Shown here: positions 4,616-58,260 of the stretch, piece by piece
Position numbering within the stretch: the stretch's first letter is position 1
Layout: each line of letters begins with the position of its first letter
Assembly: GCF_011046735.1 (NCBI RefSeq)
Contig: NZ_CP049258.1
Location: forward strand, 4,048,001 to 4,112,000
From: Nordella sp. HKS 07
GTDB lineage: Bacteria; Pseudomonadota; Alphaproteobacteria; Rhizobiales; Aestuariivirgaceae
DNA: 64,000 nt
Direction: 5' to 3'
Program-made: the position numbers and the translations under genes
Notes under the pieces: model-generated
Told to the model about the DNA's origin: nothing
What the model saw: the letters and a program-made list of their open reading frames with translations, nothing else
Databases searched by the model: none

Positions 4616-4774
4616 ACTTAGAGCAATTCCCGCCAAAGTTGAAGACTTTGGCGATAAGGATTTGCTCCAACATATTGATTTGGCGCGAATCCTTTTCGGC
4701 GAAGTGATTACACTTCTACGGCTTCGGTTGTATCGTCTCAAGCGATGCTTAACTTCTGGATGTGCTTGAGTCTA
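4616..4774. repeat. Intergenic repeat with hairpin between convergent genes
   Basis: A 159-bp region between the convergent MTHFR-like and MFS genes. It holds a perfect 9-bp inverted repeat, CGCCAAAGT at 4631-4639 and ACTTTGGCG at 4645-4653, which could terminate in both directions. Bases 4681-4709 are identical (29 of 29) to 23096-23124 upstream of glnE, showing a dispersed repeat. The left edge (AGAGCAATTC) resembles intergenic repeats I know from Rhizobiales. Confidence 0.6.
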
Positions 4775-8207: not shown

Positions 8208-8315
8208 CTAGAGCATGATCCGGAAAAGTGCGAAGCGGTTTTCCGAGAGGATCATATGCAAACAAGAAGATAAAGCGTGATGGCGACTCGTTCTAAAGCC
8301 ATTACGCTTTATCGG
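8208..8315. repeat. Palindromic intergenic repeat between soxG and the binding-protein gene
   Basis: A two-part repeat in the roughly 280-bp space between soxG and the next leftward gene. The first part, from CTAGAGCATGATCC at 8208, contains ATGATCCGGAAAA and TTTTCCGAGAGGATCAT arms around 8215-8255. The second is GATAAAGCGTGATGGC at about 8269 pairing with GCCATTACGCTTTATC ending near 8312. The GAGCATGATCCGGAAAAGTG core is, from memory, a common Rhizobiales intergenic repeat. It may act as a terminator after soxG. Bases 8316-8475 hold nothing else I can support. Confidence 0.65.
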
Positions 8316-17454: not shown

Positions 17455-17913
17455 ATGAAGCGGGTCGGTACGGCGCTTCTTCTCTTTCTGCTCTGGATCG
17501 CTCCGCTGGGGGCGGTCGAGCCCGACGAGATACTGGCTGATCCGGCGCTTGAAGCCCGCGCGCGCGCGCTGTCGATGGGACTGCGCTGCCTGGTCTGCCA
17601 GAACCAGTCGATCGATGATTCGAATGCGCCCCTCGCTCGCGACCTGCGCATTCTTCTGCGCGAGCGCCTGACGGCCGGCGACAACGACCAGCAGGCGGTC
17701 GACTATATCGTGGCGCGTTACGGCGACTTTGTTTTGTTGCGCCCGCGCTTCACCGCCGAGACATGGATTCTGTGGATCGGTCCGTTCGTGCTGCTGCTGG
17801 TAGGTGGAACATTTCTTCTCATGCGCCGGCGCAACAACAAGGAAGACGCGGTCGAGCGTTCGCTCGATCCGCAGGAGCAGGCCGACTTGGAGCGCCTGCT
17901 GGACCGCCGCTAG
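17455..17913 (+). CDS. ccmH: Cytochrome c maturation thiol-disulfide protein CcmH (CycL)
   Basis: 152 residues. A signal peptide/TM (ALLLFLLWIAPLGAV) precedes the periplasmic domain with the redox motif LRCLVCQNQ (LRCxxCQNQ) near residues 43-51. A C-terminal TM anchor follows (WILWIGPFVLLLVGGTFLL). CcmH reduces the apocytochrome CXXCH pair before heme ligation. The TAG stop codon at 17911-17913 belongs to the left end (CTAG) of an intergenic repeat, so the repeat appears to supply the stop. Confidence 0.95.
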   Translation: MKRVGTALLLFLLWIAPLGAVEPDEILADPALEARARALSMGLRCLVCQNQSIDDSNAPLARDLRILLRERLTAGDNDQQAVDYIVARYGDFVLLRPRFTAETWILWIGPFVLLLVGGTFLLMRRRNNKEDAVERSLDPQEQADLERLLDRR

Positions 17914-18005
17914 ACCACGATCACTTCAGTAGATGTGATCGACATTTTGAGTTGGCGCGTGATCGGACGGAAAGCCTGTGCCGGCTTTTCCTGGTCATGT
18001 GCGTG
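17910..18005 (+). repeat. Degenerate copy of the CTAGATCACGAT repeat, overlapping the ccmH stop
   Basis: Begins CTAGACCACGATCACTTC and continues through GTGATCGACATTTTGAG, GGCGCGTGATCGGACGGAAA and GCTTTTCCTGGTCATG. The order and spacing match the element at 58119-58234 and the one inside pepN (35837 back to 35721). The central inverted repeat is shortened, so this copy is about 95 bp. The first bases include the ccmH stop codon. Confidence 0.7.
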
Positions 18006-22299: not shown

Positions 22300-23093
22300 A
22301 TGGACCGCCACGACGTTGCGAAACATTGGGAAGCCAATGCCGAAACCTGGACCCTCCATGCGCGCGCGCCGGCTACGACGTCTATCGCGATGTCCTGAAC
22401 ACGCCGGCCTTCCTGGCCATGCTCCCGGAAATCAGGGGCCGCAAGGGACTCGACGTCGCTTGCGGCGAAGGCTCCAATACGCGCGAGCTCGCCAGGCGCG
22501 GCGCGCTTATGCAGGCGATCGACATCGCGCCGACCTTCATCCGTCATGCCCAGGAGCAGGAGGCGAAGGACCCGCTCGGCATCGTCTTCCAGTATGGCGA
22601 CGGCATGGACATTCCGTTCGCCGATGAGAGCTTCGATTTCGTCACCTCGCTCATGGCGCTGATGGACATGCCGGATCAGGGCAGGGTGCTCGCGGAGATC
22701 GCCCGCGTGTTGCGCCCCGGCGGCTTCCTGCAGTTCTCCATTCTGCATCCCTGTTTCGTGCCCCCGCATCGCAAGAACCTGCGAGAGCCGGATGGAACCG
22801 TGCGGGCGATCGAGGTTGCCGGCTATTTCGACGCTATGGACGGCGAGGTGGAACGCTGGTGGTTCTCCACGCTTCCCAAGGCGGAGCGCGAAAAGGTGGC
22901 ACCCTTCGGTGTACCCCGCTTTCATCGCACTTTGAGCCAGTGGGTGAATTTCATCTGCACGTCCGGTCTGGTGATCGATGAACTGGGCGAGCCACGCGCC
23001 GACCCCGAAACGGCGGCCGCCCACCCCACCGTGGCCGACACCCGCATCGCCCCGATCTTCCTGCATTTCCGGGCGCGGAAACCAGATTCATAA
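22300..23093 (+). pseudogene. Class I SAM-dependent methyltransferase, frameshifted near the 5' end
   Basis: The ATG at 22300 has an excellent AAGGAGGA eight bases upstream and opens MDRHDVAKHWEANAETWTL, a typical start for this family. That frame ends after about 31 codons. The rest of the protein, from GYDVYRDVLNTPAFLAML on, is in another frame and continues intact to 23093. It shows the SAM motif GLDVACGEGSNTRELARRG, the VFQYGDGMDIPF motif and a post-motif LRPGGFLQFSILHPCF. The switch lies in a (GC)5 tract at 22360-22369 and equals two extra bases. It could be a pseudogene, a sequencing error or a slippage switch. The intact enzyme would be about 264 residues; its substrate is unknown. Confidence 0.8.
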
Positions 23094-23148
23094 TCTGGCG
23101 CGAATCCTTTTCGGCGAAGTGATTCCACTTCGCCTGGATGCGCGCTAG
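23094..23148. repeat. Short dispersed repeat upstream of glnE
   Basis: TGGCGCGAATCCTTTTCGGC and the following 9 bases (23096-23124) are identical to 4681-4709. The copy sits just after the methyltransferase stop and ends with GCGCGCTAG about 8 bp before glnE. Confidence 0.65.
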
Positions 23149-33245: not shown

Positions 33246-36002
33246 TCACCGCCCCAGCGACTTCGAAACAATCTCGTAAAGATCGCGCGACAGGCCACTC
33301 GTTCCGAGTATCCGTTCGAGCTGCGCCTTGGCGAGGCCGCGGCGTTTTTCCTCGAGCGTTGCCCAGCTGCGCAAGGCGGTCGCCATGCGCGCCGCTACTT
33401 GCGGGTTCTTCGGATCGAGCGCCAGGATCGTGTCGGCGAGAATGACATAACCTTCGCCGCTCTCGGCATGGAAGGCGAAGGGGTTGGCCATGGCGAAGGC
33501 GCCGACCAGGCTGCGCACCCGGTTGGGGTTGGTGAGCGTGAAGTCGGGATGCGCCATCAGTTCAAGCACCCGTCCCGGCGTGGTGCTGAGCGGGGCCGAG
33601 GCCTGCAGCGCGAACCACTTGTCGATCAGCAGATTGTCGCCGCGGTGGCGCGTATGGAAATCGGCGAGCGCCTGCTCGCGTTCCGGCACGTCGAGGGTGG
33701 TGATTGTCGAAAGGGCGCCGATCTCGTCGGTCATGTTGGTGATGCGGGAAAGCTGCTCGCCGGCGAGCCTCGTCGCAAGCGCCGGATCGCCGCCGGCGAG
33801 GGCCTGCAGCACCGCATAGCGCAGCGACCGCCGACCGGTCTCTTCCGGATCGGGCCGGTAGGCGCCATGGCTTTCCGTCTTCCGCCACAGTTCGACCAGC
33901 ACGTCCTTGAGACCCATACCTGTCTCGGCGCGCAGGGCCTCGCGCGCCTGGTGAATGGCGCCCGGATCGACATCGCGGGCGATCAGCGTGGCGATCTCCT
34001 GCTCGCCCGGAAGCCCCAGCATCAACGCCTTGAAGGCGTCATCGAGATGGCCGTCCTCCAGTACCGCGCCGAGGGCGGTAATGAAGGACTGGGTGTCCGC
34101 CGCGGATGTCTTTCCGGCGAGGCGGTCCCGGATGAGGGCAAACGCCGCCCTCTGCGAGGCCTCCCAGCGGTTGAACGTGTCGCCGTCATTCTTCATCAGG
34201 AAGAGCTGCTCGGGGATGCCGGAGTTGCTCCTGATGCGGATAGGAGCGGAGAAGCCACGATTGAGCGACAGAACGGGCTTCCGCGCCACATTGCGGAAGC
34301 GGAATGTCTTCTTCGTCTCGTTGAGCTCGATCAATGGCGCATTGAGCACGCCAACATTTTCGAGATCGAGTGGCATGTCGCGGCCGTCCGGCCCGACGAG
34401 CCCGATGCCGAGCGGTATCGGTACCGGCCGCTTGTCGGATTGCCCGGGCGTCGGCGCCGTCACCTGCTCGAGGGAGAGGTCATAGGTCTTCGTCTTCGCA
34501 TCGTAGCTCTCGGAGACGGTGACCTCCGGCGTGCCGGCCTGCTCGTACCAGGTAAAGAACTGATCGAGATTGCGTCCCGAGGCATCTGCCATGCAGCGCA
34601 CGAAATCTTCGGTCGTCGCCGCCTCGCCGTCATGGCGCTCGAAATAGAGATCCATCGCCTTGCGGAAAGCCTCGCGCCCGATCAGCGTCTGCAGCATGCG
34701 GCAGAGCTCGGCGCCCTTCTCATAGACGGTGGCTGTGTAGAAGTTGTTGATCTCGATATAGGAGGAAGGCCTGACCGGATGGGCGAGGGGCCCACCGTCT
34801 TCGGGAAACTGGTCGGCGCGCAGCCGCTTCACGTCGACGATGCGTTTCACGGCGCGCGAGCGGATGTCGGCGGTGAATTCCTGGTCGCGGAAGACGGTCA
34901 GACCTTCCTTCAGGCAGAGCTGGAACCAGTCGCGGCAGGTGACGCGGTTGCCCGTCCAGTTATGGAAATATTCATGCGCGATGATGCTCTCGATATTGAT
35001 GTAGTCGATATCCGTCGCCGTCTCGGGCAGCGCCAGTATGTATTTGTCGTTGAAGATATTGAGCCCCTTGTTCTCCATGGCGCCCATGTTGAAGTCGGAG
35101 ACGGCGACGATCATGAAGATGTCGAGATCATATTCGAGGCCGAAGCGCTCCTCGTCCCAGCGCATCGAGGTCTTGAGCGCTTCCATCGCGAAGGCGCAGC
35201 GATCCTCCTTGCCCTTCTCGACATAGATGCGCAGATCCACCTTTCGCCCCGAGCGCGTGACATAGGTGTCGCTGACCAAAGCGAGGTCGCCGGCGACAAG
35301 CGCGAAGAGATAAGACGGTTTGGGATGAGGATCCTCCCATTCGGCGAAATGCAGGTCGCCGCCGGCGATCGTGCCGCTTTGGCCGGGATTGCCGTTGGCG
35401 AGCAGGACCGGGCATGAGGCGAGGGGGGCCTCGATGCGCACCTTGTAGCGCGCCATGACATCAGGGCGGTCATAAAAATAGGTGATGCGCCGGAAGCCTT
35501 CCGCCTCGCACTGGGTGCAGAACACATTGTTGGAGACATAGAGGCCGGACAGCTCGCTATTGGCTTTCGGATTGCAGAGCGTCACGATCTCCAGGGTGAA
35601 AGGGCGCTGCGGCACCTCACGAATAGTGAGATTCGTGGCGGTGAGGTCATAGCGGGAAGGCTCGAGCGTCTCGCCATCGAGACTTACCGACCTGAGTTCC
35701 AGCTTTTCCCCATCAAGAATTAGCGCGGGATGCGAAAAAGCGGACACCGGTTTTTCGCGAGAATCCCGCGCCAAATTATTAGAATCGATCACGTTTATGA
35801 GTTTGGATTGATTCAATCCAAACTCATCGTGATCTAGGGGTCCGCCCTTCTGCTGCGCTGCCGCATTGGGGCGAAAACTCAGCCGGGAGGTGACTTGCGT
35901 CGCCTCGGGCGCCAGGACAAACTTGAGAAAGACCTCGTCGATCAGATAGGGAACGGGCCGGTAATTCTGCAAATAAACGGTCTGCGGGCTTGCGTCATTC
36001 AT
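33246..36002 (-). CDS. pepN: Aminopeptidase N (M1 family) with a 39-residue repeat-derived insert
   Basis: 918 residues, about 40-50 longer than usual. The M1 motifs are intact: GAMENKG near residue 306 and the zinc site HEYFHNW with His343, Glu344 and His347. The C-terminal ERAP1-like helical domain is complete. PepN removes N-terminal residues from peptides in the cytoplasm. Residues 56-94 (LDHDEF...HPAL) have no place in the family: they fall between RLSFRPNAAAQ and the conserved LDGEKLELRSVSLDGE, and are encoded by a 117-bp palindromic repeat. Without the insert the HExxH histidine would be at 304, close to its usual position. The insert is in the N-terminal beta domain, probably on a surface loop, so activity may be kept. 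Confidence 0.93.
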   Translation of the reverse strand: MNDASPQTVYLQNYRPVPYLIDEVFLKFVLAPEATQVTSRLSFRPNAAAQQKGGPLDHDEFGLNQSKLINVIDSNNLARDSREKPVSAFSHPALILDGEKLELRSVSLDGETLEPSRYDLTATNLTIREVPQRPFTLEIVTLCNPKANSELSGLYVSNNVFCTQCEAEGFRRITYFYDRPDVMARYKVRIEAPLASCPVLLANGNPGQSGTIAGGDLHFAEWEDPHPKPSYLFALVAGDLALVSDTYVTRSGRKVDLRIYVEKGKEDRCAFAMEALKTSMRWDEERFGLEYDLDIFMIVAVSDFNMGAMENKGLNIFNDKYILALPETATDIDYINIESIIAHEYFHNWTGNRVTCRDWFQLCLKEGLTVFRDQEFTADIRSRAVKRIVDVKRLRADQFPEDGGPLAHPVRPSSYIEINNFYTATVYEKGAELCRMLQTLIGREAFRKAMDLYFERHDGEAATTEDFVRCMADASGRNLDQFFTWYEQAGTPEVTVSESYDAKTKTYDLSLEQVTAPTPGQSDKRPVPIPLGIGLVGPDGRDMPLDLENVGVLNAPLIELNETKKTFRFRNVARKPVLSLNRGFSAPIRIRSNSGIPEQLFLMKNDGDTFNRWEASQRAAFALIRDRLAGKTSAADTQSFITALGAVLEDGHLDDAFKALMLGLPGEQEIATLIARDVDPGAIHQAREALRAETGMGLKDVLVELWRKTESHGAYRPDPEETGRRSLRYAVLQALAGGDPALATRLAGEQLSRITNMTDEIGALSTITTLDVPEREQALADFHTRHRGDNLLIDKWFALQASAPLSTTPGRVLELMAHPDFTLTNPNRVRSLVGAFAMANPFAFHAESGEGYVILADTILALDPKNPQVAARMATALRSWATLEEKRRGLAKAQLERILGTSGLSRDLYEIVSKSLGR
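35721..35837 (-). repeat. CTAGATCACGAT palindromic repeat inserted in frame within pepN
   Basis: On the coding strand the element begins CTAGATCACGATGAG (35837) and ends GCATCCCGCGCTA (35721), 117 bp or exactly 39 codons with no stop. It contains the inverted repeat GAGTTTGGATTG / CAATCCAAACTC and the shared blocks ACGTGATCGA, GGCGCG and AAAACCGG. The intergenic copy at 58119-58234 has the same blocks in the same order, and its own frame is also open across 39 codons. Aligned translations share about 15 of 39 residues. Confidence 0.85.
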
Positions 36003-58118: not shown

Positions 58119-58234
58119 CTAGATCACGATCAATTCAGGTCGGCTCGACCTGAATTGATGAACGTGATCGAGATTCTTAAGTTTAGCGCGCGATCGGACG
58201 GAAAACCGGAATCCACTTTTCCTGATCGCGCGCT
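58119..58234 (+). repeat. CTAGATCACGAT palindromic repeat, intergenic copy with open 39-codon frame
   Basis: Starts CTAGATCACGATCAATTC at 58119 and ends TGATCGCGCGCTT near 58234. Internal arms TCAATTCAGGTCG / CGACCTGAATTGA make a 13-bp stem with a short loop. Blocks AACGTGATCGA, GAAAACCGG and CTTTTCCTGATC match the pepN copy. Read from CTA, the frame is open for 39 codons and gives LDHDQF... KPESTFPDRAL, aligned to the pepN insert. Confidence 0.8.
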
Positions 58235-58260
58235 TGCCAAGGCTTTTCCCTTGGTCCAAG

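Follow-up and report, generated by a model that had tools for sequence, protein, structure and literature searches.

The gene of the M1 aminopeptidase N (pepN) studied here carries, in frame, a 117-bp repeat made of two hairpins, which adds 39 codons to it. The preferred interpretation, to which a probability of about 0.82 is assigned, is that a mobile repeat of the CIR/RIME type was inserted in pepN in the lineage of this species, and that it is apparently tolerated there. The whole stretch of DNA analyzed, 64,000 nucleotides long, is called the window, and its relevant features are as follows:

33246..36002, minus strand: pepN, M1 aminopeptidase N of 918 amino acids with the insert (TIGR02414 and M1 Pfam domains)
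35721..35837, minus strand: two-hairpin element of 117 bp, occupying PepN residues 56-94 in frame (135.2 bits by the covariance model)
35787..35834, minus strand: hairpin 1, with GANTC at its loop (fold and GANTC scan)
35774..35786, minus strand: linker joining both hairpins, with GANTC at its start (fold and GANTC scan)
35721..35773, minus strand: hairpin 2, carrying the third GANTC (fold and GANTC scan)
58119..58235, plus strand: second full copy, of the other hairpin-1 subfamily, with the CAATTCAGGTCG arm (covariance model, 121 bits)

The coordinates of the pepN element, its ends on the coding strand (CTAGATCACGAT and GCGCTA), its reading as 39 stop-free codons and the start of the catalytic HEYFH motif at residue 343 of 918 were all confirmed as given in the initial annotation of this DNA. 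The insert flanks had been located correctly there, but each is one residue longer than noted, the real ones being NAAAQQKGGP and ILDGEKLEL. The description as a palindromic repeat does not hold if a single palindrome is meant, as the coding strand folds (-59.8 kcal/mol) into a pair of hairpins joined by a linker. An Rfam scan of the window at gathering scores gave no match, and the search for PDB relatives of the insert peptide yielded none that was convincing (best E 0.69).

Apart from the insert, PepN is an intact M1 aminopeptidase, as had been claimed: TIGR02414 matched residues 89-916 with 1195 bits (cut-off 718), and the M1 Pfam domains also matched. In the alignment to E. coli PepN (2dq6), query residues 5-39 aligned weakly and 91-916 strongly, and the insert fell between 2dq6 residues 38 and 49. 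The AlphaFold model had a mean pLDDT of 91.0, with values below 50 at residues 53-90, a stretch flanked by two strands of the N-terminal domain. The insert is thus predicted to be disordered, with the low pLDDT being partly expected from insert columns without aligned sequences. The tryptic peptide LINVIDSNNLAR is a predicted marker of the insert-bearing protein.

The occupation of the insert site was studied in a sample in which PepN was present in 57 of 60 genomes (the own one included), plus 80 loci from named genomes. The alignment contained 109 orthologue rows (two row pairs being identical), of which 108 cover the insert site and one does not. None of the 108 covering rows carried the insert, since 107 had no residue at all in the insert columns and one had a single residue. 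The ortholog comparison proposed in the initial annotation revealed, therefore, no homologous non-repeat segment at this site. A separate empty-site alignment, run with a subset of the fetched loci, showed 7/7 empty orthologues, relative to which the net gain is 38 residues, and a covariance-model scan of the 80 pepN loci of named genomes returned two weak matches only. The PepN insert is known from one assembly, which would be expected if it were an artefact of assembly or sequencing; this is extremely unlikely, because the genome is a single contig, the pepN frame is intact, the pepN copy is identical to none of the 39 other scored copies (the nearest at 95%), and an analogous insertion in MurF occurs in three assemblies.

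Concerning the repeat nature of the element, a hairpin-1 pattern tolerating up to three mismatches matched 108 times in the own genome and 44, 13, 42 and 6 times, respectively, in the genus genomes G001, G002, G003 and G004. The reversed control gave 0 matches, so the repetition is beyond chance, and the membership of a repeat family assumed at the outset is well founded. BLAST with the element found at least 40 near-full-length copies of 91-100% identity, the window copy included (40 of 185 candidates scored). For lengths and features, 102 of 110 copies were kept, and eight were dropped because they lacked a recognised end or had a length outside 112-119 bp. The retained copies measured 113-118 bp (65 of them 117 bp and one 114 bp), with TA at the left end in 80/102 and at the right end in 66/102. 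The consensus fold derived from 48 copies consists of two arms joined by a linker, with double changes in 14 of its 37 pairs. Two hairpin-1 subfamilies account for 83 and 17 of the 102 copies, and their arms differ in compensatory fashion; a mosaic copy (L204:1937-2053, minus strand) has hairpin 1 of one subfamily and hairpin 2 of the other. The window also contains weak covariance matches at 17910-18004 (plus strand, 42.3 bits), 8209-8312 (minus strand, 41.2 bits) and 23062-23147 (plus strand, 23.4 bits), which are probably decayed or partial element copies. A 39-bp direct repeat of 95% identity (4678-4716 and 23093-23131) overlaps weak element-model matches with both its copies, which may be parts of decayed element relatives.

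The genus is Taklimakanibacter (Aestuariivirgaceae, Hyphomicrobiales), by its nearest named relative, because the G002 PepN is identical to that of Taklimakanibacter lacteus (L061) over the last 800 residues. Beyond the genus, the BLAST relatives included 137 plasmid records, 124 of them from Sinorhizobium. Of the 30 matches listed, the best had 85% identity and came from Terrarubrum, and those from Sinorhizobium were nearly full length with 74-82% identity. In one S. meliloti record examined, the stretch bears no annotation; two S. meliloti matches among those listed sit under 'hypothetical protein'. The Terrarubrum plasmid copies lying under annotated genes overlap gene ends only: in the Terrarubrum flagellatum plasmids L296, L297 and L298, two annotated CDS end within the end sequence of the element, and the annotated start of pxpB falls within a copy.

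The covariance model at E<=0.001 found the element in 48 of 90 genomes (the own one included); as at most 41 candidates were scored per genome, the counts for single genomes are minimum figures. This distribution bears on the mechanism of dispersal. A Y1 transposase mobilizing a REP/RAYT element would fit the CTAG-like ends and the single Y1_Tnp (PF01797) match that the genome gave. However, Y1_Tnp was found in 17 of the 90 genomes (some of them incomplete) versus 48 for the element, five genomes (G003, G013, G017, G031 and G034) with at least 35-41 scored elements gave no Y1_Tnp match, and neither the own Y1 locus (L221, 1.5 kb on each side) nor the Y1 loci of six relatives contained an element-model match. 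Mobilization by RAYT is thus not supported and is considered quite unlikely.

Coding-frame copies in other genes, which the initial annotation had anticipated, occur elsewhere in the genus. A peptide profile run over the five genus genomes, together with codon scoring and the census described below, gave three more coding cases, each one facing empty orthologous sites: MurF, a di-haem oxidoreductase (DHOR, PF06537) and a DppD-type ATPase with an oligo_HPY domain. These three genes and pepN all read the element from the same strand in the same frame, which lengthens each protein by a net 37-38 residues. The empty-site alignments used part of the fetched loci (7/16 for DHOR and 9/16 for the DppD-type ATPase, the own included, and 12/16 for MurF). 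The DHOR insert, located after a presumed signal peptide, occurs only in the own genome, with 6/6 orthologues empty. The DppD-type insert is restricted to G002, where it is close to the C-terminus, and 8/8 orthologues are empty. The MurF insert, a few residues from the C-terminus, occupies its site in three genomes (the own one, G003 and G004), and the site is empty in 9/12 sequences (G001, G002 and seven further aligned relatives). A HlyD-type gene (L214) is a probable fifth coding insertion. None of the four checked inserts is more than about 60 residues from an end of its protein, a position that suggests survival of the element at tolerant places.

A frame census was made with 110 copies, 100 of them listed among the 108 own-genome matches and 10 taken from relatives and chosen for long frames. 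No stop interrupts the frame used in pepN in 77/110 copies; an antisense frame is open in 37 copies, and another two frames are open in 2 copies apiece. As those 77 copies are open whatever their location, the open frame gives no sign of selection for the peptide. By codon scores, only PepN was clearly coding on both sides among the 110 copies, two others scoring 0.06-0.07 on each side. This census overlooked two insertions: DHOR was not flagged on both sides because the signal-peptide part scores low, and the MurF copy stayed outside because its arms are too diverged for the pattern, and was found by the peptide profile. A classifier of 240-bp flanks missed PepN on account of its short left flank, while the ORF census found it. 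Judged by codon scores rather than gene annotation, the copies are apparently mostly between genes and few of them in genes. So, the idea that similar peptides are scattered in Rhizobiales proteins was not borne out, as coding copies look rare. Other long frames through copies (e.g. L003, L021, L147, L207, L209 and L220) were discarded, having the element at the frame start or a poor coding score. In the doubtful candidates L205 and L210, ABC ATPases of G003, the element is at the N-terminal side and the upstream part is poorly coding; L212 was excluded for a run of N adjoining the element.

MurF is the most informative case among the coding insertions. For the five genus genomes, three genes gave the unrooted tree ((G002,G004),(G000,(G001,G003))) with support 1.0, the insert being present in G000 (the own genome), G003 and G004 and absent in G001 and G002. 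The arms of both hairpins of the MurF insert matched only the MurF loci of the three filled genomes among 300 sequences (1.41 Mb), and the MurF arm appeared once among 110 outer-arm matches in own-genome loci. Because the arms match no further sequence among the 300, the simplest reading is a single insertion followed by two losses; transfer or conversion between species would also give this pattern, but it is less simple than single descent. The species pattern suggests, then, repeated loss. At the murF 3' end, G001 (L245) differs from G003 (L243) at several of about 15 bases beside the empty site, and both differ little outside that stretch, which is perhaps a conversion or repair tract.

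Substitutions in the MurF insert were compared to those of its flanks in the three pairs of filled genomes, comparisons that are non-independent and concern 38 codons. Synonymous changes between the own genome and G003 were 2/26 in the insert versus 136/368 in the flanks (Fisher p=0.002), and in the other two pairs 6/26 versus 168/370 (p=0.04) and 6/26 versus 161/369 (p=0.04). Non-synonymous changes were 11/88, 14/88 and 11/88 versus 66/1057, 84/1055 and 88/1056 (p 0.04, 0.016 and 0.17). The pN/pS ratio was accordingly 0.54-1.61 in the insert and 0.17-0.19 in the flanks. From these sequence comparisons, the MurF insert does not seem to evolve as a conserved peptide, and it looks as if it were kept as a nucleotide hairpin. 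Between G003 and G004, a paired change in hairpin 1 (GCC/GGC versus GAC/GTC) altered two amino acids and kept the pair.

The hairpins are kept in the PepN insert, whose RNA folds with -59.8 kcal/mol. Recodings of the same peptide, 300 per insert with GC3 set to 80%, gave a mean of -30.3 for PepN, with an sd of 4.9 and a minimum of -48.7. Six of the seven coding inserts, the HlyD-type included, fold more stably than all 300 recodings, though barely in two of them. GANTC sites had a density of 17.1 per kb in the 102 elements, 4.0 in shuffled elements and 1.4 in the window, being in the loop in 70/102 copies and in the linker in 68/102.

These data allow two alternatives to be weighed. According to the first, the hairpin would have a function within the coding region (mRNA stability, an RNase III site, CcrM/GANTC methylation or binding of a nucleoid protein), the peptide being a by-product. 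The scarcity of synonymous change in MurF, the paired change that preserves hairpin 1 and the enrichment in GANTC argue for it. On the other hand, the MurF data are few and non-independent, the G004 MurF insert (-47.4) is less stable than its best recoding (-49.2), the DppD insert beats its recodings barely, and the GANTC sites, three each in PepN and DHOR, are only 1, 1 and 0 in the MurF copies. Moreover, homogenization among copies could likewise reduce synonymous change. A hairpin function is thus possible, but rather doubtful. The second alternative is that the peptide was adopted, the added loop altering the function of PepN, MurF or DppD and being kept for this reason. Three species share the MurF insert, all with the frame open and the length unaltered, as this would require, but the high pN/pS of that insert, its absence from two species of the genus and the predicted disorder of the PepN insert make adoption very unlikely.

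It seems most reasonable to regard the coding copies as insertions of a mobile repeat that have survived in frame where the edges of proteins tolerate them. In pepN, a CIR/RIME-type repeat with two hairpins, mobile but non-autonomous, would have entered an N-terminal-domain loop about 55 residues from the start, and would have survived thanks to a usually open orientation and frame and a length multiple of three bases. PepN would gain a probably floppy loop of 38-39 residues, with the fold and the catalytic residues kept. We infer that the insert is neutral, that PepN is produced and active, and that some enzyme moves the element. The MurF insert, being common to three species with few synonymous changes, counts against pure neutrality. 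In addition, the finding of murF alleles with and without the insert within a single genus suggests a tentative and rather less likely picture, in which the CIR/RIME-type element would be a reversible, frame-safe passenger that enters an open frame, is subject to hairpin-level selection or copying, and exits without a scar. Those alleles provide a test case for the entry, persistence and exit of inserts, and allow testing which of the two, hairpin or peptide, is exposed to selection. For annotation purposes, the insert peptide should be taken as a repeat, not as a domain.

Concerning known repeats, CIR are the CcrM-associated intergenic repeats reported by Chen and Shapiro in 2003, and RIME were reported by Osteras in 1995. 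A RIME consists of two palindromes in about 108 bp, and we know of no intragenic one. The element relatives in Sinorhizobium, in records that bear no RIME label, are likely candidates for RIME1. CIR are described as alphaproteobacterial repeats of about 110 bp with two long hairpin arms, a linker, a terminal-loop GANTC and TA ends, none of them found intragenically and with stops in all six frames (PMC2229807); another review calls them strictly intergenic (PMC10969869). The element resembles CIR, as these are described, in its length (about 110 bp; 113-118), in having two arms with a linker between them, in the GANTC of the loop and in the TA termini, and differs in its one usually open frame (77/110) and in four filled genes. 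RIME, the Rhizobium-specific intergenic mosaic elements, appear as intergenic in PMC2573895 and PMC2245857, and share with the element the character of palindromic rhizobial repeats, with the Sinorhizobium relatives mentioned above.

The likeness to the Rickettsia palindromic elements (RPE) drawn by the initial annotation holds for the in-frame, apparently tolerated peptide, but by build the nearest family is CIR/RIME. RPE are palindromes of 105-146 bp that supply in-frame peptides to unrelated genes and also have intergenic copies (PMC2229807), or have about 150 bp (PMC10969869). The element shares with them the in-frame insertion into unrelated conserved genes (PepN, MurF, DHOR and the DppD-type ATPase); it differs in genus and in a coding share that looks much lower, the likeness being one of behaviour. 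The presence of repeats within genes has precedents, since intragenic REPs of the GTAG and CGTC families are known: PMC3733652 reports palindromes in ORFs of many species, including free-living alphaproteobacteria, with peptides of 20 to 82 residues and, at gene ends, REPs that can supply a TAG stop. The element is likewise a palindromic repeat within ORFs, but REP units have 20-40 bp with GTAG/CGTC tags, whereas this one is a 117-bp two-hairpin unit. MITE are characterized by terminal inverted repeats and a target-site duplication; the element shows two separate hairpins. A literature search, with most subscription papers outside its coverage, found no report of coding CIR, RIME or Hyphomicrobiales palindromes. 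The coding insertion of a CIR/RIME-like element is, then, known in kind and new for this element type, and it extends the in-gene behaviour of Rickettsia repeats and REPs to a two-hairpin type that has been reviewed as strictly intergenic.
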